From contig AP026151.1 of assembly GCA_030295235.1 (NCBI GenBank), positions 744,001 to 808,000 on the forward strand: a stretch of DNA of 64,000 nt, read 5' to 3'. Position 1 is the first letter of the stretch; the number at the start of each line of letters is the position of its first letter. Of this stretch, positions 5,398 to 41,016 are shown in pieces. The notes below the pieces were generated by a model. That model did no database searches and was not told where the DNA came from. It was given only the letters and a program-made list of their open reading frames with translations. The position numbers and the translations under genes were made by a program. Origin of the DNA: Fistulifera solaris. Its lineage: Eukaryota; Bacillariophyta; Bacillariophyceae; Naviculales; Stauroneidaceae.

Positions 5398-6546
5398 CTA
5401 CCGCTGCTCTGCATTCTCGGCTCGTTCCGGAAAATCCATGAGCGCGTTCGTTGCTGCCGCAAGCGTAATCATCCCCGCCCCTATCCAACCTTGCAGTCCT
5501 CCCAAACTTTCTCCTAGCCACCAACTGGAAAAGAAAGCTCCGTAGACGGGATCCATGGCATAGATCACCGACGCCCGCTCCGCCGAAATTCCTTTTTGTG
5601 CCTTGGACTGTATCCAGTTCGTCAACGCTGTCGCGACTCCTCCCAAATACACAATTTCCCAACCATGCTCCGTGGCAGTCCGCCACAACGCATCACCCAC
5701 GTCCAGCGGAACCGCATTCCAACACGTCCAAATTGCCGAAAGCGTCGCTACCACCCACATTGACGCCGCATTGAACTCGGCCGCATTCGCCACTTGGGCC
5801 GATGCCTGTTCTAAACGCAATATAAACATGGCCGAGGCCATGGCAGCGGCGACCGACCAGGCATCACCAATATTCAAATCATTGAGACCTTCACTGGCAG
5901 AGCCGGCCGTCGCCAAGAGTGCGGTACCGGTAAATGCCACGAGTGCTGACAGCAGTGTCGAACGACGAATGGTGCGTCCCAACAAAAGGTACGCCAAAAA
6001 GGGAACGAATTTGACATTGAGATACAATAGGAAACCCGATTTTTGTGCCGTCGTGTATTCCAAGCCTATAGCTTGGAAACTAAAGCCCAGAAACATCCAA
6101 AATCCCATTTCCAGCCCCCATCGCCAGGTTTGTGCCGCTTCTTTCGTGTCGATTGCTGGATTCCACAACCGTGATACGCCCGGAGTAAACGGTGCCGCCA
6201 GCAGAGCTGCTAAACCAAACCTCAACAAAGTAAAGAAACTCGCATCACTGCTTTCCATGACTTGTTTGATCACGGCATGTTGACTGCCCCATATGACGGC
6301 TACAACATTTAACAACAGCACCGAGGATGTCGTCGTTGTGGAAGTAGGATGTGTTTCGTGACTTGGCAACGAGGATAAATGAGTTTTTGGTTCTACTGTT
6401 TCACAAGGAGCGTCGACATTCAGATTTGTCATCTTTTTCTCCATGCCCAACTGGCTGCGAACCAAGAATCGATCATGGGGAATATTGTTCAGTGACCGTC
6501 GAGTGCAGAAACAGCACAACGAAATGAATGCTGCTTTGCTCCTCAT
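5398..6546 (-). CDS. EamA/DMT-family membrane transporter
   Basis: 382 aa, one uninterrupted frame from an ATG at 6546. After a roughly 75-residue hydrophilic N terminus there are about ten hydrophobic segments in two related halves. Typical EamA marks are NVVAVIWGSQHAVIKQVM at the first helix, the Gly-rich end of the first half (LVAFTGTALLATAG) and, in the second half, SAERASVIYAMDPVYGAFFS, followed by a WLGES-type signature. The family moves small metabolites; the substrate cannot be read from sequence. The N terminus (Cys/Arg-rich, CTRRSL) may be a targeting peptide, but I see no clear plastid cleavage motif. The gene is tail-to-tail with PET117 and about 145 bp from it. Confidence 0.85.
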   Translation of the reverse strand: MRSKAAFISLCCFCTRRSLNNIPHDRFLVRSQLGMEKKMTNLNVDAPCETVEPKTHLSSLPSHETHPTSTTTTSSVLLLNVVAVIWGSQHAVIKQVMESSDASFFTLLRFGLAALLAAPFTPGVSRLWNPAIDTKEAAQTWRWGLEMGFWMFLGFSFQAIGLEYTTAQKSGFLLYLNVKFVPFLAYLLLGRTIRRSTLLSALVAFTGTALLATAGSASEGLNDLNIGDAWSVAAAMASAMFILRLEQASAQVANAAEFNAASMWVVATLSAIWTCWNAVPLDVGDALWRTATEHGWEIVYLGGVATALTNWIQSKAQKGISAERASVIYAMDPVYGAFFSSWWLGESLGGLQGWIGAGMITLAAATNALMDFPERAENAEQR

Positions 6547-6928
6547 TTTCCTTCCAGCTTGCTTATATCAATAGTTGAGTGCGCTTCAGTTCTACGGTCA
6601 TCAATGTTGAAAAACTAGCATTAAAAATAAATATAGAATGATCGTTTGATCTCACTTGATGATGGATTATGTTTCTGCGATGGTGTTATTGTTGAGGAAA
6701 AAAATATTTGTACCGACTCAACTACTATTCAGTCCCGGAATCGAACTAAAGGTGTCTTAATAGATGCCTATAAACAGCCCGCCGGTGAAATCTTGTGCTA
6801 GAATACTGCAGCAATTTGAACTGTGTTATGTATGCGATGTAATCTATTCGAGCTTTTCGGCTCTATTATCTACGAAATGTGTAATATTTACAGAAGTAGG
6901 ATCGTCAGCGTCAAACCATTCGGTCGAA

Positions 6929-8743
6929 TTAGATCATGCCCGACAAAATCGTCGCCGCGACCATCAAACTCAACCAATCAGACGCATGGATATTCGCACT
7001 TCCTTGTGAATCGGTGCTTTCTGAAGGCTCCTGTATTAATGTGGGCACGATACTTTCCGTCGCGTTGCGAAACATTGACGGTGTCGACGGTGTCAATTCG
7101 GAACACTCGGTCGTGTTGGTGGTACCGAATAGACGTGGCATAGTGGTTTCGGTCGCGGTAGGGGCTTCCCACGTCGAAGCACAGAATTCAAATGGAATAT
7201 TGTAAGCACAAGTCCAGGGCAAGCCCGAGAAGGTTTGTCGGGGATAATATAAAATAAAGACAATGCACATTTCTTCTCGCGAAGACAGGCCAAAGTGAAC
7301 TTTTCCGCCGTCATGCTGACGAACCGATTGATACCGGCACGTCGTTCGAAAGGAATCACCCGGTAAGACTTGATACGGATCTTGTTGCACTGCTTGATTG
7401 CCCTGTTGATGAAAGTCGAAAAAATCAATTTGCGCCAGGTGGACGACCTCACCATCGCCGCGTACTACTTCATTCCGTGCTTGTGCCCCGTGGGCGTGCA
7501 TATGCAAATATTCCCGCAAAATCGTCACGGGTTCGGTCAAGATGGTGCCAGTACAAGACGATGGACAGGAAAAAATATGGTCTCCGGCACCCACGGCGGT
7601 TCCCGACAATTGCACAAAGGGATCGCCCAATTGCAAGACACTGGCTTCGATGGGTCGCATCTCGGTGGTATAATAAAACTGCACCGCCGTACTATCTTGA
7701 ATGCCCGAGACTAGATGTACATTGTCATAGTGCACTTCCATGAGGAAGCTCGTCGAATACCCCGGTCCGGCGTAGAGAGCGACATCGTCGGGAAATGCCG
7801 TCGCCTCCTCCCCCTGGTCCCCACACATATCTTCATCAAAACGCGACAATAAGAATAATTCCTCTTTGGATCCACAGCAAACATGTATTAACTTACACCA
7901 TGGTACGCTCGAGAGAATCACATTTATCATCGGGGAAGCCATAAATAGTCAGATGATGTACATGGGCCAGTTGATCAATGAGTGGTTCTACTCCAATGAT
8001 CGAAATGGGCTGATCCTCCGGAACCCCCTGCCCTACCATATCCGTAACATTCAAGCAAAAATCGGCGTACTCGGTTTCTTGTGCCGAAATCGTATAATTG
8101 ACGGCCGCGACACGAAAGGCTTGTGCCGCTTGCATACGCGTCGCAAAGTCAAGCACATCCTCCTCTTGTGTCCACTGTATGGCGCCACGAACCCGATGAT
8201 TCGGTCCATGATACTCCGCCTGCGGCGTATCACCCCACGCCACAATGATCCGCGAGGGAGGAACACCGACTGCCGTCACAATCGGACGATCTTGCCCATC
8301 GGCAGTGTCCAGAGCGCGCGTCACTTGGACCATTAAAAATTCGTCGGTCACCTGCCACGCTTGCAATTCCCAATCCTGTCGACAATCCGTGACAGGCTGC
8401 AGCTCGTCCAGTACGTGGGCATCGCGCACTTGGTCGGGTTGTGCCGTTTCAAACAAAAACAAGTCGGCACCCCGCATCCCCCCATTTTCCGACAAACCAA
8501 ATCCCAACCATCCCGTGGCACGGGCCACTACCGCCAATTGTAATTGCTCGTCGATGATTGACCAATGAAGTGCGGCGCCGGAGGTCGACGCGTCGGACAG
8601 AAAAATCGACGCATTATAGATACCTTTACCGTTTCGTACCATTCGATATACTCGTCATTTCCTCCAAAATAAGTCGAATAATCGCTACTGCCGCTCGCGG
8701 ATGCAATCCAGAGAAACAAAAGAAGGGAAACAGGCAATCTCAT
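6929..8743 (-). CDS. DOMON / copper type II monooxygenase (DBH/PHM family), two frame breaks
   Basis: Three segments on one strand make a secreted protein of about 600 aa. Residues 1-19 (MRLPVSLLLFLWIASASGS) are a signal peptide. A DOMON domain follows (LHWSIIDEQLQLAVVARATG, GWLGFGLSENGGM). Then come the two copper domains: AHVHHLTIYG holds the CuH histidines, LMEVHYDN another ligand, YLHMHAHG the CuM His pair, and EMCIVFILYYP the Met ligand. The last residues are hydrophobic (WLSLMVAATILSGMI), suggesting a GPI signal or tail anchor. Family members use ascorbate to hydroxylate amines or peptides. The frame changes near 8629 (one G short) and near 7900-7945. A very short intron at the second site is possible but unlikely. 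Substrate unknown. Confidence 0.8.
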
Positions 8744-30709: not shown

Positions 30710-31572
30710 ATGAAGTTCACAATAAGCTTCCTTTCGTCCTATTTATTTCTTTTCTACAATCAAGCTGTAGTGAAAGCACTCATATTATCCATGTCGAATA
30801 ACAGCAACAATCAACAATGCGAGTCCGATCGCTTGCAGCTCTGGCACGGCAAGGTGCGTTTGTCAGCGTCGTTTTCTCTTTCTTTTAATCCCTCTTATCC
30901 CTTTTCTTCATGCAGTGGACGAATCAGCAAATCGGGTGGCACGAAAGTGATGTTCACGGAGCCATTCGTCAATACGAGGAGACCTTGTTGTTTCCGGACA
31001 TCACAACAACGCCGAAAAGAATCTTGTTTCCCTTGTGCGGCAAAACGGTCGATATGGCGTATTTGGCGACGAAATACTCCGAACAGTTGCAAATTGTAGG
31101 AGTCGATGGAGTAGCTCAGGCTTTGGAGACCTTTGTGAAGGAACAGGAACATTTGAAGTTGGAGAAACAAGTCGACAGCAATCGATGGATGAATTCGAAT
31201 TTGGAGTTGTTGCAGAGTGACTTTTTTCAAATGACACAAGACAACTACCAGTCGTATCATCATACGTTCGACGTTATCTTCGATCGAGCCTCGCTGGTGG
31301 CAATTTCACCCTCCTTGCGCGAAGATTATGTCCAAGTTTGTCGCAAATTGTTAAAGCCCAACGGCAAGATCCTGTTGATTGTCATTGAACGCATCGCGGG
31401 TGATATTACGGCGGGGCCTCCGTTTTCCGTAACACACGAGGATGTGATGCGTCTGTACAGTCATCAAGAGTGGGTGGAATCGGTAAAATTGCTCGAAGAT
31501 CAAGGAGAAGCGCAACGAAATCAAGTCTCTGCGGATATGGTGTCTCGCTATTACTGGATTCAATGCAAATAA
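30710..31572 (+). CDS. TPMT-family S-adenosylmethionine methyltransferase
   Basis: Exons 30710-30853 and 30916-31572 (62-bp intron, acceptor TGCAG) encode 266 aa. TPMT marks are clear: the entry WHGK|WTNQQIGWHESDVH, motif I ILFPLCGKTVDMAYLA, VVGVD-type post-I (IVGVDGVAQAL), and FDVIFDRASLVAISPSLREDY, typical of the family. TPMT enzymes S-methylate thiols, halides or thiocyanate; algal members often make methyl halides. The first 24 residues are hydrophobic (MKFTISFLSSYLFLFYNQAV), suggesting entry to the secretory route or plastid. The gene is tail-to-tail with a JmjC gene, 90 bp away. Confidence 0.88.
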
Positions 31573-31663: not shown

Positions 31664-33022
31664 TCAGAAACGCCAGCCAACTTTGGTGGCTAGCGTGTGA
31701 CTGGAGATGAAGCGGTTGTTCTTCTCGCGCAATGTGGTGTGTTCGTCGTACATCGGACTCGGGTTGCGCAAAATATCGTGCATGAACCGCCACGATTTGA
31801 GGCCGGCATAAAACATGAAATCGCTCCAACGATTCACATCATCGTCTTCGGTGGTGAAATGAAAGGTGGAGCCGACACCGCCCTTGGCAACCCAGCGAGA
31901 AGCGATAGCCGTAGTCTTGGCAGCCGTGTTGCGAACCGCGTGCCACCACCACGGAGGAACGAACAGGAGATCACCGGCTTGCATCTCCATTTTGTAGTAC
32001 GGGAGCCATTTCATCAAAGGAAATTTCGTTTCGTCGTATTCATCGGGGAAGGGAGGAAAGCAGAAATTGGCCGCGCGGCCCGTCACGGAAAGGGGGTAGA
32101 GGAACCAGCTGTGTTCTGGGTCGACCATGTACCACGTTTTGGTTCCTTCATATAAGGCAAACAAGTTCCAGTTCGACGCGCAATGCAAAGGTGTCTTGGT
32201 TCCATGTTTGCCAGCAAACAGTTGGCAGTACCCGAGATCTTTGTTCAAGTAGGGTGCGAATCGTTCCAGGTTGGCGGCTTTGGCGATTTCCGGGTGTTTC
32301 TTGTACACGGTCTCGCAGTTGACCAAGTAAACACGGGGATCTTCAACCTCCTTGAGTTTGCCGGCATAATCGGCTCCAATGTCACCTCGGGTTAACATGA
32401 CTTCTTCCTCTCCATACTTCTTCACCAACATATCAAATGACAGCTCCTCCTTTTCGATTTTGTTAATGCCGCGCAGAAGGCAAGGACGAGGATTCTTGAC
32501 AAACTTCTCGTAAAATTCTTCCGGTGAACCGTTCTGCCAATCATACTCGGGGAACGGCAAGGGCTTCATCATCCCTTCGGGTTGCTCTCTCTGGCAAATG
32601 TGTAGAATATAAGCGTGGGTCATGTGGTAGACCATGCTCAAGGCAAAGCGAATACCGGTAATGTAAGAAAGCACGACTCCAAAGATATGAAAGTGTCCGG
32701 TGATCGTCCCCGTGCAGAACCAGACGAACTTGAGAATGATTTTCGGAAGATAACCAATGTCGACGGCAAGGTCTTGATCTTTGTGGTAGTGCCCGTTGAG
32801 TCGTGAGGAGAAAACTGGCTTGAGTCCACACCAAGATACCAACAGATATCGAAGGCGAATCATGAGTTGGAGGTAAACAACTTGAAGACGAGTGCGATTG
32901 CCGGGCGCTGGATGGTCGGGCCACACGAAAAGCCACGCAGTGAAGATACTAATCGCCGATGCTGCTATAATCTCCTTTTGCTCCAAAAGGAGTGCCCATA
33001 TTGTGCTCAGAAGGCCTATCAT
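31664..33022 (-). CDS. Membrane-bound JmjC/cupin protein with altered iron site (copy A)
   Basis: 452 aa, one frame. Membrane segments lie at about 17-34 and 100-140. The C-terminal half is a JmjC-type cupin: LLRGINK, then TPLHCASNWNLFALYEGTKTW (280-ish) and GDLLFVPPWWWHAVRNT (His at about 361), followed by a basic residue in ASRWV. Compared with FIH-type enzymes (TPxHxDxxxN), the Asp of the HxD pair is Ala here (His280-Cys-Ala282), while the distal His is kept. Normal JmjC enzymes hydroxylate proteins using Fe(II) and 2-oxoglutarate; this one is either inactive as a hydroxylase or uses the open ligand site differently. A paralog of identical length lies next to it. Confidence 0.85.
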   Translation of the reverse strand: MIGLLSTIWALLLEQKEIIAASAISIFTAWLFVWPDHPAPGNRTRLQVVYLQLMIRLRYLLVSWCGLKPVFSSRLNGHYHKDQDLAVDIGYLPKIILKFVWFCTGTITGHFHIFGVVLSYITGIRFALSMVYHMTHAYILHICQREQPEGMMKPLPFPEYDWQNGSPEEFYEKFVKNPRPCLLRGINKIEKEELSFDMLVKKYGEEEVMLTRGDIGADYAGKLKEVEDPRVYLVNCETVYKKHPEIAKAANLERFAPYLNKDLGYCQLFAGKHGTKTPLHCASNWNLFALYEGTKTWYMVDPEHSWFLYPLSVTGRAANFCFPPFPDEYDETKFPLMKWLPYYKMEMQAGDLLFVPPWWWHAVRNTAAKTTAIASRWVAKGGVGSTFHFTTEDDDVNRWSDFMFYAGLKSWRFMHDILRNPSPMYDEHTTLREKNNRFISSHTLATKVGWRF

Positions 33023-33454
33023 TTTCCTCTTTAGCTGAAGAATAAAAATGATAAAGGAAGGGTGTGAGGAAAGGCGTCAACCAATGCCAAGAAAAGATTT
33101 TTGTTGACAAAATGAGGTGCGATCCAAAATATCAGAATTCAGAATCCATGATCCGGACATCAAAGACATCTAACTAAAAAAAATAAAACGTACACTTTGC
33201 AGGAGAAATTCGAAGTTCTTTGCTAGGGGGCAATTGTTTGGATGTCTTAAGACAGCGAAATTGCTTAGACTAAATCTCTCGACAACACGTTTCGAGTCGT
33301 GTTTCCGATTGACACCCCCTTCCAATAAGGCAGCATGGTGCTAGGGCTAATGCTTTTTACCTCCAGATTGGCTCGACTAGACTGAGTCTTTCGACTAATA
33401 CAGCATACAGCGAAGAGACAAAATAGGCGAAGATATCTAAAATGGGGTTTAGGA
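33023..33454. other. Spacer between JmjC paralogs
   Basis: 432 bp, AT-rich, with no gene. It is the promoter side of copy A and the 3' side of copy B. An apparent frame reaching into it (33265-33765, minus) is an overlap with copy B. Confidence 0.4.
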
Positions 33455-34813
33455 TTAGAAGCGCCAACCAACTTTCGTGGCCAAGGCGTGACTGGAAATG
33501 AAGCGGTTATTTTTCTCTCGCAATGTGGTGTGTTCATCATACATCGGACTGGGATTGCGCAAGATATCGTGCATAAAGAACCAAGATTTAAAGCCGGCAT
33601 AGAACATGAAATCGTTCCAGCGGTTGACGTCGTCATCTTCGGTGGTGAACTGAAAGGTATTGCCGACACCACCGCATCCGACCCAGCGAGAAGCCATCGC
33701 GACATTCTTTTCCGAAGTGTTTCGAACGGCATGCCACCACCACGGCGGAACGAACAAAAGATCACCGGGGTTCACCTCGACTTTGTAAGAGGGCAGCCAT
33801 TTCATTAGAGGATGCAACTTTTCGTTGTAATCGTCGGGGAAAGGAGGAAACGCGAAAGTGGCAGCGAGGCCGACCGCGGATAAAGGATACAGGAACCAAG
33901 TATTTTCCGGATCAATCAAGTACCACGTCTTGGAACCTTCAAACATGGTAAAGAAATTCCAATTCGAGGCACAATGCAAGGGCGTCTTGGTTCCATTTTT
34001 GCCAACAAACATTTGGCAGTATCCCGGCTTCTTCTTCATGTACGGCGCAAACTGTTCCATGTTGGCAGCCATACCGATTTCGGGGTGTTTGTTGTACAAT
34101 GTCTCGCAGTTGACCAAATAAACGCGAGGATCTTCGACTTCCTTGAGCTTGCCGGCGTAGTCTTTGCCGATATCGGCCCTCGTTAACATCACCTCTTCTT
34201 CGCCATATTTCTTGACAATATTATCAAACGAGAACTCTTCCATCTTATCTTTGGTGATTCCTCGTAAAATACAGGCCCGGGGGTTCTTGACAAACTTCTC
34301 GTAAAAATCTTCGGGCGAACCGTTCTTCCAGTCGTACTCGGGCAATTTCAAGAACTTTTCCATTCCTTCCGGCTTGTCTCTTTGGCAAACGTGAAGTATG
34401 TATGCGTGCGTGACATTGTAAACGAGGGAAAGGAAGATACGAAAGCCGCACAGATACGAAAGTACCATGCCAGGTACACCGAGATTGCCGGAGATTGTGC
34501 CGTTCAAAAACCAAATGATCTTGAGAATGATTTTGGGTACATAGCCGATATCTACAGCGTGATCTTGATCTTTGTTGTAGTGTCCGTTGATTCGTGGAGA
34601 CAGAAATGGCTTGAGACCGCACCACGATACCAACAGATAGCGAAGACGAATCATGGCTTGCAGATAAACGATACGAAGACGAGTGCGATCACCCGGGGCC
34701 GGGTGGTCGGGCCACAACAAGAGCCACGTCGTAAAAAGACCCATTAGGGAAGCTACCACCATTTCTTTTTGCTCCAAAAGGAGAGACAGCATCGTTTTGA
34801 GATGTTCTATCAT
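33455..34813 (-). CDS. Membrane-bound JmjC/cupin protein with altered iron site (copy B)
   Basis: Also 452 aa and alignable to copy A without gaps. It has the same N-terminal anchor (LLLEQKEMVVASLMGLFTTW), the same second hydrophobic region near 100-140, and the same cupin motifs TPLHCASNWNFFTMFEG and GDLLFVPPWWWHAVRNT. The last 30 residues are nearly identical to copy A. The His-Cys-Ala triplet is conserved, so the Asp-to-Ala change predates the duplication and has been kept. A tandem head-to-tail duplication is the simplest origin. Cellular location is a membrane, probably ER or plastid envelope, with the cupin on one side. Confidence 0.85.
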   Translation of the reverse strand: MIEHLKTMLSLLLEQKEMVVASLMGLFTTWLLLWPDHPAPGDRTRLRIVYLQAMIRLRYLLVSWCGLKPFLSPRINGHYNKDQDHAVDIGYVPKIILKIIWFLNGTISGNLGVPGMVLSYLCGFRIFLSLVYNVTHAYILHVCQRDKPEGMEKFLKLPEYDWKNGSPEDFYEKFVKNPRACILRGITKDKMEEFSFDNIVKKYGEEEVMLTRADIGKDYAGKLKEVEDPRVYLVNCETLYNKHPEIGMAANMEQFAPYMKKKPGYCQMFVGKNGTKTPLHCASNWNFFTMFEGSKTWYLIDPENTWFLYPLSAVGLAATFAFPPFPDDYNEKLHPLMKWLPSYKVEVNPGDLLFVPPWWWHAVRNTSEKNVAMASRWVGCGGVGNTFQFTTEDDDVNRWNDFMFYAGFKSWFFMHDILRNPSPMYDEHTTLREKNNRFISSHALATKVGWRF

Positions 34814-35368
34814 GGCCAGATCGTTTGGTGTGCTCTGCCAGATTCACTTCGTGTCAAATGAGACGATTGCCATCGGTCCCACTCAAGGGTTTTGAATCGG
34901 TAAAAAATGCGGCCCAAATGCGAACAAAGAAGGAGGCGTAGATCGCTTGATATTTTTAGACTCCGATAAAATGTGATAAAATGGTTATTACCTCGTAAGA
35001 AACAACGAATGGAGTCTTAACACTTAAGTAGTGCCGGCGTTCCATAAAGTTGAGTATTTACAAGGTCGAATAATTTAGCACGATGCGTTGCTATGTACTA
35101 TGTATAGACACCAAGAAAAACGAATCTGAACCATAATGGTGACTCACAAGTCCAAAAGAGTATTTATCGCAGCGGGTCTTACGTACGTGAAAGAAATACT
35201 TTGTAGGGAGACGATGGACAGACTTCAAGTTCAAAACGCGGGAAAACGCGACAAGAAAGACACGAAGGTGGAACTTTCGACGAAAAAACGTTCTCATTAG
35301 AAATTCTGCAAGCAATTGTGCATGTATTCGTTGCAACAAAGACAACCTTTGCAAATCGTTCTAGCACA
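34814..35368. other. Spacer between divergent genes
   Basis: 555 bp with no supported gene; open frames on the minus strand (35091-35472) are shadows of the next gene or have no domain. Confidence 0.4.
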
Positions 35369-36181
35369 ATGCGAGTTTTCTTTATTATCCTACTGGCTTC
35401 CCCTTTCGCGAGCGCTTGGTTGGCTCCAAGAAACGCTGTTCGTTCCACACAGAATTCACGACGACTCATCACGTACGCACTCGTTCCTCAAACCAACCCT
35501 AGTGCCGATACACACGCCGTCAGTCAAGCCGGAGTTATCTACTCCGATGCCTTTGCGTGTATTCAATCGGTATACCCGGCCGCCATGCTTTCACAGCGCA
35601 ACGCCGTCAGTCGAACCGATGGCTACTGGCCGTACCTTTCGCAGGGCATCGAACCGCCACGGTCACTCACGTACGGAGAATTCGATTTTTATTTCTTTGC
35701 GGAGCTCTTGGATCGTGCCTTATTGCTGAGTGCACGGGAGAGTTGGCAAGATACCGTCTTTTGTGATGTAGGGAGTGGAACGGGTCGGCTCGTCTTGGCG
35801 GCGCATCAATTGCACGCCTGGAAAGAATGTCGTGGAGTGGAAATCTTACCGCAAGTGCATCGAGAAGCGGAACACAAGTTACAAGAGTGTGATGGCATTA
35901 CCTTGATCTGCGGTTCCTTTGAAGACAACGACAATCTCAAGAACGCGGACTGCATTTTCGCCTTTTCGAGCTGTTTCACTCCAGAAACAATGCAAAGCTT
36001 AGGGAATGCGGTCGGGAAACAATGTAACCCGGGAACCATAGTTATTACTACGGACTATATGCTTCCATTGGAAGGTCCGGACTACTTGCTTCGATTGGTC
36101 GAACAACGGAATGGCTGGTGTTGGTTAACGGGTGGTCCAAGTACTGCCTTTCTTCACCAAGTCGTGCAATCGTCATCTTGA
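35369..36181 (+). CDS. Plastid-targeted SAM methyltransferase-like protein
   Basis: I start at ATG 35369, because MRVFFIILLASPFASA|WLAPRNAVRS is a textbook diatom bipartite presequence: a signal peptide, cleavage before an aromatic residue (ASA|W), then a Ser/Arg-rich transit peptide. The enzyme body has motif I FCDVGSGTGRLVLAA, an acidic turn GVEILPQVHREAE, and NADCIFAFSSCFTPETM in place of motif IV. The order and the E-F-x-F-Y-F lead-in (LTYGEFDFYFFAELLDRA) resemble DOT1-like histone methyltransferase folds, but a plastid enzyme would act on another substrate. About 270 aa. Confidence 0.75.
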   Translation: MRVFFIILLASPFASAWLAPRNAVRSTQNSRRLITYALVPQTNPSADTHAVSQAGVIYSDAFACIQSVYPAAMLSQRNAVSRTDGYWPYLSQGIEPPRSLTYGEFDFYFFAELLDRALLLSARESWQDTVFCDVGSGTGRLVLAAHQLHAWKECRGVEILPQVHREAEHKLQECDGITLICGSFEDNDNLKNADCIFAFSSCFTPETMQSLGNAVGKQCNPGTIVITTDYMLPLEGPDYLLRLVEQRNGWCWLTGGPSTAFLHQVVQSSS

Positions 36182-36241: not shown

Positions 36242-37675
36242 CTAAATAATTGTATTTACCGTTGATTGTTGTTGCTGTTCATCATCGCCTTTGTCGCTTT
36301 CGTTTTCCGTCATATTGGCCAAGCATATAGACGAAGAAGTTGTTTTCTTCCGCGACAACATTTTAATGTCCTTGATGGTTTCTCGAGGGACCGTACTACT
36401 CCACAGAGCATCTTGAAAATTCATGGGTTGCGGCAGTGTCTCGGGTGGTCGATACAAATACTGCGTTTCGGACGTTTCCACCACTCGCGTAGTGGTGGTC
36501 GTCGGATGGGGGAAGCTCCGGGGCAAGTATTCCTTGTACGTGAACGTGTAACTGTGCGCAATCGCAAAAATCACCATTTCAATCACCACACAATAATCGA
36601 TCAGTCCATTGGCGACTTCTTCCGACGTCCACGAACCCAAATGATCAATAATCCCGTGTGCTTTCAAATAAAAAATGATGACACCTTGCCACCAACAGAA
36701 AAAGACAATGCCCTTGACGCAGATGAATTTTCCCAACGGTCGCCAATTGATGGGATGCCGCAATTCGGCTTCGACGGCATGATAGAGCAGTACCAAACAA
36801 TACAGCGCGTACATGACACTGAGATTCTGCAAAAAACACAAATAGGGGTACGCCACGAGCCATTCGAATTTGCCTTCGCCGTACACATTCGCCGATTCGC
36901 ACAAAAACGTCAATAACGTGGCAATGCATTTGATGACAACATATTGCAAGACGCCGTGTTTGCATTGGAGTGTGAATTCTTCTCCCAACTCCCAGGGCTC
37001 TAAAATGAGACTGAGCGGAAACGAATGTTGGCCGAGTTGCGGATCTTTGTGTCGCAACAATTCCGTCAGCGCGTCTTGTCCACCCAGTAATGCCATGAGG
37101 TAATACACAAAGGAAGCAATGACGTAAGCTTCATAGAAATCGCGGACCGAGTCAATGTAGATTCGAGACTTGTGATAGCGCAAACTCAGATAAGATTGCA
37201 TGGCGTAGAGAGGTACCATCCATAGAATGCGCACGACATATTTTTGGACTTCGGGCATGTACCAATGCGTCAAATGCAAATATACCAAGCGCACCGACAA
37301 GATGATGGTTCCAATGACCATAATCCAGGCCGAATTGAACGCCGCGGTATCGACTTTCTTGTCCGCCAGCGCTCGGTACAAGACAATGGGCAACAGTATC
37401 AACATGACAATTACGGTGACGTAAGCTATATAATTGCCAAAGCGTCGAATGAATTCTCGTATTTGTTTTCGATATGTCGTCGGCGATTCGTCACGATTGT
37501 TGTTCGGAAGAAAGGAATGTCGCTCGTCTTCGTTGTTGGGATTCGAATGCAGTGCATCTTCGGAGCTCGCTGTTGTCGTCACCGTTCGAACTGTTCTCCG
37601 CAGAACTCGTAACCCTTCCAGCAGGGACGATTTAAAATTGTTGTTTGACGAGGACGAGTAAGGATCGCTTTCCAT
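36242..37675 (-). CDS. TMEM184 / organic solute transporter-alpha family membrane protein
   Basis: 477 aa from ATG 37675 (an upstream TTG is in frame but unlikely). After a Ser/Asn-rich N terminus of about 85 residues there are seven membrane segments. Family motifs are VRILWMVPLYAMQSYLSL, DSVRDFYEAYVIASFVYYL and, later, GKFICVKGIVFFCWWQGVII, which together are characteristic of TMEM184/LAZ1. The C terminus is long, polar and ends in poly-Gln. Plant and animal relatives take part in vacuolar signalling or vesicle traffic; transport activity is unproven for this branch. Tail-to-tail with the preceding gene, 60 bp apart. Confidence 0.88.
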   Translation of the reverse strand: MESDPYSSSSNNNFKSSLLEGLRVLRRTVRTVTTTASSEDALHSNPNNEDERHSFLPNNNRDESPTTYRKQIREFIRRFGNYIAYVTVIVMLILLPIVLYRALADKKVDTAAFNSAWIMVIGTIILSVRLVYLHLTHWYMPEVQKYVVRILWMVPLYAMQSYLSLRYHKSRIYIDSVRDFYEAYVIASFVYYLMALLGGQDALTELLRHKDPQLGQHSFPLSLILEPWELGEEFTLQCKHGVLQYVVIKCIATLLTFLCESANVYGEGKFEWLVAYPYLCFLQNLSVMYALYCLVLLYHAVEAELRHPINWRPLGKFICVKGIVFFCWWQGVIIFYLKAHGIIDHLGSWTSEEVANGLIDYCVVIEMVIFAIAHSYTFTYKEYLPRSFPHPTTTTTRVVETSETQYLYRPPETLPQPMNFQDALWSSTVPRETIKDIKMLSRKKTTSSSICLANMTENESDKGDDEQQQQSTVNTII

Positions 37676-38371
37676 TCTCAATATAGGATGATTGTTTTTA
37701 AAAAAATAAGTCGTGACCCTTTGAACTACAAATAGAAATCAAGGGCCAGAAAGAGCTCCGTCGCTCGTTATTGCCTTTCAAGACGTTTGCTGAATTCTAA
37801 CACAGCGAACTGAGTAAGAGAATGAAGCAGTATCACCAAGATCCTGCCATTCACGGTGAAAATCATGAATCACAATGGCTTTTGGTTCATCGTGCTGCTC
37901 AATAAATCGTGCGCGGCTTTTTCAACGGTTGAAAAAATCGCGGGTGACGTTCGTGACGCCTGATACGCGAATCATTATTCGCACTATAGCCTCAAGTGTT
38001 GCTCAACTTTTACAAGACTGAATTCCCGAGTAAGACACGATTGTCTTGTATTATTTCAAGTAACGTTCGATCGCTCCCTTTTATTAAGGATGTTCATAAG
38101 ACAACCGAATGCTATAGGCAATGAATGGTTATATTTCAGAGATAGCAACAGTTGCATTGTATTTGCCGATTTGCCTTCGGAATATTGGGTGGGTTCATAA
38201 AGATGACGTCGATTTGTACAAAATTGACTTATAGTATTTTTCGTGAGAAAGAAAACGCAGCAAACCGCAAACGTTTTTTGCTTCGAAGCGCAAGTAGCGA
38301 ACAAGGCATTGAATCTTCTGTATTGTTATCGAAATAAGCATTTGCTCTTAGCTGACTACTAGTAATAATAG
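37676..38371. other. Spacer with a worn element copy
   Basis: About 700 bp. Near 37990-38030, CACTATAGCCTCAAGTGTTG and, later, AAGACTGAATTC resemble the dispersed 60-bp element, but the hairpin is lost. No gene is supported. Confidence 0.35.
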
Positions 38372-39336
38372 ATGAAAGGGAGAGCAGAAGCAGTATCACG
38401 GTTGAGGAGAGCCGACATTTTGATCTCACTTATTATAATGATGACGATAATGATGATTCGAAGCGTCGACGCCTGGGCGCCCTCCAAACGACTTGTTTGC
38501 CGATCGACCTCCCTGTATCTCGAATCGTCTCTACGTACCGTCTCGGGCACATCGGTCGACTCGACGACCAACAAACTTTGGGATGAAGAACTTCCCGTCG
38601 GTGCTCGATGCGTCGCGCTGCAACTGCAAGAGACGAATCAGCAACACTGGATACCCACAGTTTTGCATCCCCTCGAACTCGAATACGGCCGGCAATTGCC
38701 TTCCTTCAAAACCAGAAATTCGTTCTTTTTGGGACGACTGGCGTTACGACAAGTTTTGGATACGAAAGAACCGATTTTGAAGGATGCGTACGGACGTCCG
38801 CGTCTTCCGGCCGGATATGTGGCATCGATCAGTCACAAGGGCCCCGTGGGTGTGGCATTGTTGCAAGCGTCGATGATGGGGAGTATTGGTGTGGATTTAG
38901 AATACAGTCACGGGAAATCCCAATGTGGCGCGCAAAGTGTTGACGCCCCACGAACAAGAGAGTCTCGGACAAATACCGGTAGGTACCCACGTTGAGGATG
39001 ATTTACTTTGTGCAAGAGATAAATGAATGAATGCTTGACTCACGCTCGTTCAACGCGACATATTAGACGGTTACACCGGAAGAAGAAGTGTTGTTACGTT
39101 TCAGTATGAAAGAAAGCTTGTACAAGGCCATGCATCCGTATTTGTGTCATTACGTCGGATTTCAGCAAGTGGAGGTTCAACCCACGGCCGATGGAAGAGG
39201 ACACGTACAACTGTTGTTTCCAAATGCGACGCGATTGAGTGATGTGCAAATCTACTGGCAGCGGATGGGGCCCTACTTTTTGAGTAGTTGTCGTGTGCTA
39301 CCGGTGTCCGTGACGAACGAAAACAGGAAGGAATAA
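38372..39336 (+). CDS. 4'-phosphopantetheinyl transferase, probably plastid (one frame shift)
   Basis: Exons 38372-38978 and 39067-39336 (88-bp intron). Motifs: ISHKGPVGVAL, then GVDLEYSHGKS (Mg-binding Asp/Glu) and, in exon 2, LRFSMKESLYKAMHP, the Lys-containing third motif. Such enzymes transfer the phosphopantetheine arm of CoA to acyl carrier proteins for fatty-acid synthesis. The N terminus has a hydrophobic stretch (ILISLIIMMTIMMIRSVDA) followed by WAPSKRLVC, a plastid-type bipartite signal, which fits plastid ACP as substrate. The frame changes at a C run (38919-38921); one C fewer gives HGKSNVARKVLTPHEQESL. About 292 aa. Confidence 0.85.
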
Positions 39337-39397: not shown

Positions 39398-41016
39398 TTA
39401 CACACGAAATGTGAGATCACTTTCGGGATACCACCAGCCATGAAAATCCATGGCACTGCGTTGTCCAGTCCATACTTTGCACAAAACCTTCATGGTTCGG
39501 GCATCGAGCATTAACAGCGCTGTTTCGCGCCGCTTGCCATCGTAAATTTGACTCAGTAAGATGCCATCATCTTCACCATTATTGCCGAGGGGCACAAACA
39601 CGGGTTCGGAGGGATAAACGGACTCTTCTCGAAAATAGGCCGCGATGCGTTTCTTTTCATCGGGCTGGTCGGGTTCATACTTGATCAAGCCCCACGCGTC
39701 GTAGTCTTCACTGCCGCCAAAGTACGTCCCGTACGCGTAGACGTACCGGGGATTCCCCGGCTGTCGGGAATACCGCGTCGTTGGCAATTCAAATCCTTGT
39801 CCGCCGGTGGGAATCCAACTTACTTGAACCTGTTGCGCTGACAAATCACAGATGACATCACAAAACGTTCCCCCTCGCGAAATTCGATTCCTTGCTTCTC
39901 GACTGACTTGACATTGCTCCAATCGCATGAAATGATCCTCCGAAGTGATAATGTCGGGCGTACGATACGCGCACAGCCGGATCCGAACAGTATCGTTCTC
40001 GCAGGTCGCCGAGACGGTATGATAGAAAAAGATTTTCTCATCAATGGCTTGGTCCAAAACAATTTGTTCTGTCTCCAAATCCCATACCACTATTCGCGTG
40101 GTATCTTTCTCCTCCATCGAACGAAGAAATCCGTCCGTGACCATTTTCCGAATATCTTGCACGTTGATGCGCAAGGGCTGTACCACGACAATGGCATGAC
40201 GATCGGACAAGCCAAACGAATGCACGTACGGGACGCCATCGGGCGATGGCACGGACCCTCCAACGACCGTACGAACGCCCTTTTGTTCGTGCACCAAGAC
40301 CAACTGAGGACCTTGGGGCGTCAAAGTGACGGCGACGTTGTACGTGACACTCGCATCGGTCCAGGAATAGGCCGGATGTGCCGTTTCCAAGAATTCGTAC
40401 TGCCATCGCGGTCCCTTTTGCAAAGGCGACGCCGTGGAAGATGACGACAGAGTGTCGAGTGTACCGGGATGAATTTGCGACCGCGGCGGTGCATCCGTGA
40501 CTGCCGTAATGGGACCTTGGGGATCATATTGCCAGACATTGACGCAGGTATTGTCAAAGGTCACCGAATGATAAATCGCTTGCGCGATCTGCCACCACGT
40601 TCCTTCGAGAGGTTTTTTATCAAGCAGTAAACTTCCCGTAGATATGGTAGGAACGAGTCTCGCTTTTTGTTTCACCTTTTTGTAAAAGTTGGTTTGTATA
40701 AATTTGGTTTGAAAATAGATGTGTTGACCATCCCATCGATATCCGGACAATTTCGCCAATCCATCAAAAATGTGCGAATACTGTGTGTGTTCCCCCAACT
40801 CCCACAATCCGGCACCATTGCGAATCAAGGTTCCCGACGGTAAAGCTGTGGGTAAAGTGCCTTCGATGTCGGTCAATTGCTTCAATTCGCTAATTTCGTC
40901 CGGTGCACTCGTAATCCAATCGACGAAGTTCACATCCTTTTGGTTATCGTGCTCGGTAAAGACAAGCCATAAACACAATGAAATGTCAAATAGATGGAAA
41001 GAAATAATCGTTTCAT
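39398..41016 (-). CDS. Carotenoid cleavage oxygenase (RPE65 family; one frame shift)
   Basis: About 538 aa. Iron-ligand regions are visible: AHPAYSWTDAS, YVHSFGLSDRHAIV, FFYHTVSAT and the C-terminal DFHGWW. The entry motif GTLIRNGAGLWELG ... HIFDG is also conserved. The family splits carotenoid double bonds with Fe(II) and O2, giving apocarotenoids or retinal. An N-terminal start at ATG 41016 gives a signal peptide (MKRLFLSIYLTFHCVYG), but it is one base out of frame with the rest; an A run at 40958-40960 is the likely site (LSFTEHDNQ). The enzyme could enter the secretory route or plastid; no aromatic cleavage residue is evident. Tail-to-tail with the phosphopantetheinyl transferase. Confidence 0.85.

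Follow-up and report, generated by a model that had tools for sequence, protein, structure and literature searches.

What can an iron/2-oxoglutarate (Fe/2OG) enzyme do when the aspartate usually found at its iron site is replaced by alanine? This question is raised by two adjacent genes, A and B, of the diatom Fistulifera solaris, which lie in a window of 64,000 nucleotides (GenBank assembly GCA_030295235.1, contig AP026151.1, positions 744,001 to 808,000 of the forward strand). Both encode Cupin_8 proteins with a His-x-Ala (HxA) motif at the iron site. We propose, with a probability of about 0.6, that A and B are carboxylate-free Fe/2OG aliphatic halogenases of an HxA branch of Cupin_8 that is related to the bacterial halogenase OocP, probably acting on lipids at the membrane. 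The two genes and their key residues are located as follows, with positions counted from the first letter of the window.

31664..33022, minus strand: gene A, HxA Cupin_8 protein of 452 amino acids, predicted Fe/2OG enzyme (open reading frame, Pfam and alignment)
32177..32185, minus strand: gene A codons 280-282, His-Cys-Ala (CAT TGC GCG), the first iron His and the Ala replacing Asp
31940..31942, minus strand: gene A codon 361, the second iron His (alignment)
33455..34813, minus strand: gene B, HxA Cupin_8 protein of 452 amino acids, tandem paralog of A (structure model with a mean pLDDT of 89.9)
33968..33976, minus strand: gene B codons 280-282, His-Cys-Ala (CAT TGT GCC)
33929..33931, minus strand: gene B codon 295, Lys aligned with the presumed 2OG C5-carboxylate Lys of FIH
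33731..33733, minus strand: gene B codon 361, the second iron His
34712..34762, minus strand: gene B codons 18-34, hydrophobic helix and candidate membrane anchor (hydropathy and model)

The original prediction had read His-Cys-Ala in both paralogs, and this reading proved correct. Both 452-residue open reading frames contain TPLHCASNWN at residues 277-286, with H280 and, at the usual Asp position, Ala282, as well as WWWHAVRNT, which holds H361. K295 and H361 are in register with the family alignment, and Lys295 aligns with a FIH lysine that we take to be K214, the residue contacting the 2OG C5-carboxylate. Pfam assigns A and B to Cupin_8 (E 6e-20 and 3e-20; 72.6 and 73.5 bits against a cut-off of 27.4), the JmjC profile also scores above its cut-off (E 1e-8 and 9e-9), and the structure model shows a double-stranded beta-helix with JmjC-fold matches. 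It had further been argued that HxA, being conserved in two duplicates, is functional. In the family-wide alignment residue 282 does not vary freely, and Ala, which fills the position in all rows with a letter there, is no chance replacement. Ala282 is present in 56 of 56 alignment rows (the two window proteins and 54 homologs) and His280 in 55, P0011 having Pro instead. In a set of 146 homologs pooled from several searches, one of which contributed 120 of its 206 matches, the counts among proteins with a letter at the respective column are 143/143 for Ala282, Lys295 and Trp297, 142/143 for His280, 138/139 for His361 and 137/138 for Arg376. Asn286 is kept in nearly every HxA member, and nine different letters occur at the residue between His280 and Ala282. 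The bacterial sample comprises 30 loci (29 on genome contigs and one from Planktothrix), and all 29 that reach the column have HxA; those on genome contigs were retrieved by PPWWWH or DW-type patterns, independently of the HxA site.

The same genome (51.7 Mb searched, 61 contigs), whose 23 matches to the silicon transporter family (best E 3.5e-222) are in keeping with a diatom, provided a control. Thirty Cupin_8 loci, out of 34 matches, read HxD in 22 cases, HxE in two and HxA in four, with two unreadable; some HxD rows (L055, L057, L065, L067) are gap-shifted in the column tally and were read by eye. The four HxA loci are A, B and their copies. HxD or HxE stands at the 24 other readable Cupin_8 sites, which rules out a slip in the alignment here. 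The loss of Asp is therefore real, given this control and the invariance of Ala282 and Lys295: as judged from the alignments, Asp is truly missing in a deep clade under constraint, in which the rest of the 2OG/iron machinery is retained. That no protein carboxylate binds the iron is very probable.

Halogenases of the SyrB2, CytC3 and WelO5 type combine two His with 2OG and have Ala or Gly in place of the carboxylate. They belong to the PhyH-type or other families, and their likeness to A and B is an analogy of mechanism. Neither A nor B matches the PhyH or Asp_Arg_Hydrox profiles at Pfam E-values up to 1, and SyrB2 is absent from the best 50 structures in either structure-match list, which excludes nothing. 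The closest solved relative, by both sequence profile and fold, is OocP (PDB 8a82, 'Fe(II)/aKG-dependent halogenase OocPQ'), whose iron site reads HxG and thus also lacks Asp. OocP belongs to the same Pfam family, keeps the Lys, the Trp and the second His, and has an Arg aligned with R376. The structural alignment runs from model residue 79 on at 19% identity, and both FIH and OocP align with A and B at the iron site without gaps. FIH was considered as the closest relative and rejected, as its sequence scores are lower than those of OocP, which is also the best fold match. FIH and JMJD5 share the double-stranded beta-helix, the 2OG lysine and the two His with A and B, but both score below OocP by sequence and have Asp at the position that is Ala in all rows with letters of the A and B family. 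According to PMC11260071, OocP is a trans-acting Fe/aKG halogenase, and deletion of oocQR abolishes chlorination. Unlike A and B it is bacterial, acts in the oocydin trans-acyltransferase polyketide pathway (PMC11260071) and has no counterpart of the diatom N-terminal hydrophobic segment. When an OocP fragment was compared with 295 genomes of the order containing the Photorhabdus locus discussed below, two matched at 30-32% identity, one of the matches being the Photorhabdus HxA protein itself. It is this kinship with OocP, and not the missing Asp alone, that tips the balance toward a halogenase, for which we would put the odds at the same level as for the proposal as a whole.

In the proposed mechanism, H280, H361 and 2OG would bind Fe(II), and Cl- or Br- would occupy the iron site left open by Ala282. 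Reaction of O2 with 2OG would then yield a haloferryl species, which would remove a hydrogen from an unactivated aliphatic carbon and leave Cl or Br in its place. The substrate may be a fatty acyl chain, a fatty alcohol or a related lipid reached at the membrane. The two tandem copies may attack different carbons, as the two to three paralogs per bacterial cluster suggest.

These clusters belong to the diatom pair's own clade, a group of 28 rows (97%) that contains A, B and, among others, the five bacterial loci L011, L012, L013, L017 and L014. Three of the first four are titled Myxococcales or Polyangia and one 'bacterium'. Their HxA proteins number among the nearest bacterial relatives of the diatom pair, and the genes adjoin one another: each of these four loci has two to three Cupin_8 genes, with HxA in 10 of the 10 read. 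The L017 protein matches B at 36% over residues 42-438 (400 columns), including the N-terminal helices, but lacks about the first 35 residues, and its gene sits in a biosynthetic cluster; relatives of this protein (E 1e-15) occur in 18 of 377 genomes of its phylum. A fatty acyl-AMP ligase (FAAL) joined to a carrier domain is present in four of the five loci, namely L011 (at a contig edge), L012, L013 and L017. In the last three the protein with FAAL and acyl carrier protein (ACP) also contains a thioester reductase and AurF, and a Sulfotransfer_3 gene is near.

L012, 1406-10743: FAAL-ACP-thioester reductase-AurF protein, sulfotransferase, two to three HxA cupins
L013, 3085-12358: the same set
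L017, 3344-11242: the same set

Judged by their domains, these proteins would load an activated fatty acid onto the carrier for modification, then free it as an aldehyde or alcohol and attach sulfate. This gene content follows the logic of a halogenated fatty-alcohol sulfate, which would be the putative product.

In the wider bacterial sample, many HxA genes are also found among biosynthetic genes. In 12 of 28 genome-contig loci (L039, in which the gene is cut off, was dropped), a ketosynthase-bearing frame comes as close as 6 kb or less to the HxA gene. The count refers to the edge of the frame, so that the ketosynthase itself may sit further off in long frames. By comparison, no ketosynthase was found in stretches of 3.8-15 kb around nine HxD Cupin_8 genes, which come from four of ten of the same genomes. 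Pfam confirmed polyketide synthase (PKS) domains in all five loci checked (L018, L022, L025, L032 and L033). In the Photorhabdus PKS cluster (L032, 9258-12073) a free-standing ACP, the HxA cupin, a DUF1801 protein and an acyltransferase are encoded, and the end of the carrier protein is the start of the HxA gene. Order and sizes of the reading frames are similar in Xenorhabdus (L026, L030). On a Planktothrix agardhii plasmid (L043, 3145-21509) the HxA cupin lies in a triterpenoid-type cluster with a cyclase-type gene, a P450 and a Rieske protein, and in Calothrix (L036, 957-9170) it accompanies a squalene epoxidase-hopene cyclase fusion, Rieske and FAD genes. At L020 the HxA gene is flanked by a sulfotransferase, and a ketosynthase is also present. 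The Pfam neighbour scans covered all but nine of the bacterial loci.

What would the substrate be in the diatom? Ketosynthases are few in its genome (eight matches at six places, on three contig pairs; E 1e-10), and a lipid substrate therefore fits better than a modular polyketide. Membrane anchoring had been predicted as well, and holds up in part. Residues 18-34 are hydrophobic (Kyte-Doolittle hydropathy 2.04 in A and 1.85 in B, 17-residue window), they coincide with a helix at 16-33 in the gene B model, and they may anchor the protein to the membrane. A second stretch, residues 113-131 (1.79 and 1.71, 19-residue window), need not be transmembrane, because the match to the OocP structure already begins at model residue 79. 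The N-terminal anchor, if real, would suit a lipid substrate. Taken by itself, a lipid or fatty-acyl substrate is a tentative assignment, with a chance somewhat short of even. The chrysophyte Ochromonas danica was the first source from which chlorosulfolipids were described, followed by Poterioochromonas; those derived from mussels have up to 11 chlorines, and recent work correlates chlorosulfolipid abundance with counts of several diatoms and dinoflagellates (PMC13413282). By term count, the word halogenase is absent from the main text of that paper. HxA homologs occur in transcripts labelled as a chrysophyte, Dinobryon (taxid 98059; P0035), and as the dinoflagellate Gymnodinium catenatum (taxid 39447; P0033), with cross-contamination possible in both cases. 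Seven Sulfotransfer_3 matches were found in the diatom, one of them on C26, the contig with the copies of A and B, about 140 kb away. It is conceivable, if rather unlikely, that the HxA cupins of all three algal groups (diatoms, chrysophytes and dinoflagellates) and those of the bacterial FAAL-AurF-sulfotransferase clusters are the missing halogenases of polychlorinated fatty-alcohol sulfates of the chlorosulfolipid type, membrane-associated and with tandem copies chlorinating different carbons. A product of the chlorosulfolipid type must likewise be called unlikely for A and B.

Several observations weigh against the halogenase proposal or its lipid version. JMJD5 superposes more tightly than OocP over the shared core (root-mean-square deviation 1.9 over 220 residues versus 3.3 over 315) and has the higher target-normalised template modelling score (about 0.83 versus 0.70). 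In a 61-row tree OocP and the HxA rows are grouped at an SH-aLRT of 82-86% only, and the OocP branch is long. OocP has Gly, not Ala, and works with OocQ (PMC11260071). On the window contig (C25) no Sulfotransfer_3 match was found, and AurF was unmatched in the diatom genome. The fifth bacterial locus of the clade, L014 (Gimesia), has no FAAL, AurF or sulfotransferase match, its scanned neighbours being an antiporter and Rrf2. No biosynthetic gene was found among the one or two neighbours scanned at L014, L027, L029 and L031, and those of L015 were only PhyH and MgtE. In the ketosynthase comparison with HxD genes, contig ends truncate some of the control stretches, and the ten genomes were partly picked for their contexts, which leaves 12 of 28 as the fairer number. 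Finally, AspH, a two-His 2OG enzyme, hydroxylates and was not seen to halogenate (PMC13168262).

AspH also exemplifies the alternative that survives best, for which a real if minor chance must be conceded: a two-His hydroxylase, in which a water held by the second shell replaces Asp and a lipid or protein is hydroxylated or desaturated. FIH D201G reportedly still hydroxylates, and the PDB contains FIH variants in which Ala or Gly occupies this position (2ilm and 3d8c, the latter titled D201G with alpha-ketoglutarate). AspH is a natural Fe/2OG enzyme with two His and a tightly held water at the carboxylate site (PMC13168262), but it is of another family than A and B. The invariance of Ala across very distant lineages speaks against such a hydroxylase, as does the nearest solved relative, OocP, a halogenase that also lacks Asp. 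The canonical ligand could also have been lost in a sensor or pseudo-enzyme without catalysis, in which iron and 2OG are bound but no turnover follows. Here hardly any member has lost either His, Lys295, Trp297 or Asn286, the ratio of nonsynonymous to synonymous substitution rates (dN/dS) is near 0.1, and many bacterial members have the position of tailoring genes in PKS, triterpenoid and FAAL surroundings, all of which makes this reading very unlikely. Of the functions first suggested for the pair, the halogenase is thus favoured, through OocP, and the sensor disfavoured. Hardly credible is an ordinary 2-His-1-carboxylate hydroxylase with another Asp or Glu as third ligand, for although the acidic residues D161, E225, D301 and D351 are invariant or nearly so, the same alignment method reads HxD or HxE in 24 other Cupin_8 genes of the genome, and the alignment with FIH and OocP is free of gaps around the HxA motif.

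If the halogenase proposal is true, A and B would represent a Cupin_8-type aliphatic C-H halogenase family in eukaryotic algae, tied to bacterial clusters that seem to load, reductively release and sulfate a fatty acid. The question of who halogenates chlorosulfolipids could then be settled with a testable enzyme family. Even if these enzymes are hydroxylases, a two-His Cupin_8 clade that is invariant across bacteria and algae would help to test what decides between halogenation and hydroxylation. No description of this HxA family, of a diatom Fe/2OG halogenase or of a chlorosulfolipid halogenase was found in the titles and abstract openings of the papers listed, which leave subscription journals mostly uncovered and the absence unproven.

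A and B are identical at 336 of 452 residues (74%), and both reading frames are intron-free. In the region of the pair, C25 and C26 are collinear and 79-87% identical, and Cupin_8 matches lie at similar places on further contig pairs, an allopolyploid-like pattern. On C26, A has an intact copy (A') with 94% identity, and the copy of B (B'; L009, about 6294-7648, minus strand) has a frameshift near residue 272 in the assembly. The C-terminal part of B' is 96-99% and its N-terminal part 89% identical to B, which hints at gene conversion. The dN/dS is 0.098 for A and B (dS 1.6, near saturation) and 0.082 for A and A'; together with the conserved site residues, values near 0.1 led us to reject a pseudogene pair. 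A viral origin was rejected as well, as none of 49 pattern-matching stretches in viral contigs encodes a relative. Seven Cupin_8 proteins, A and B among them, were scanned against NCBIfam, which has no model for any of them at E 0.01.

The neighbouring TPMT, DOT1-like, phosphopantetheinyl transferase and RPE65 genes are unsupported as partners of A and B, adjacency in eukaryotes being weak evidence. The TPMT-family methyltransferase gene (PF05724, E 3e-40; window 30910-31572, plus strand) is convergent with gene A and lies about 90 bp beyond its stop. Beyond gene B follow a DOT1-like methyltransferase (35318-36181, plus), an Ostalpha-type solute transporter (36242-37681, minus), a 4'-phosphopantetheinyl transferase N-terminal domain (PF17837, E 5e-8; 38372-38995, plus; about 3.6 kb from gene B) and an RPE65-type carotenoid oxygenase (39398-40978, minus).

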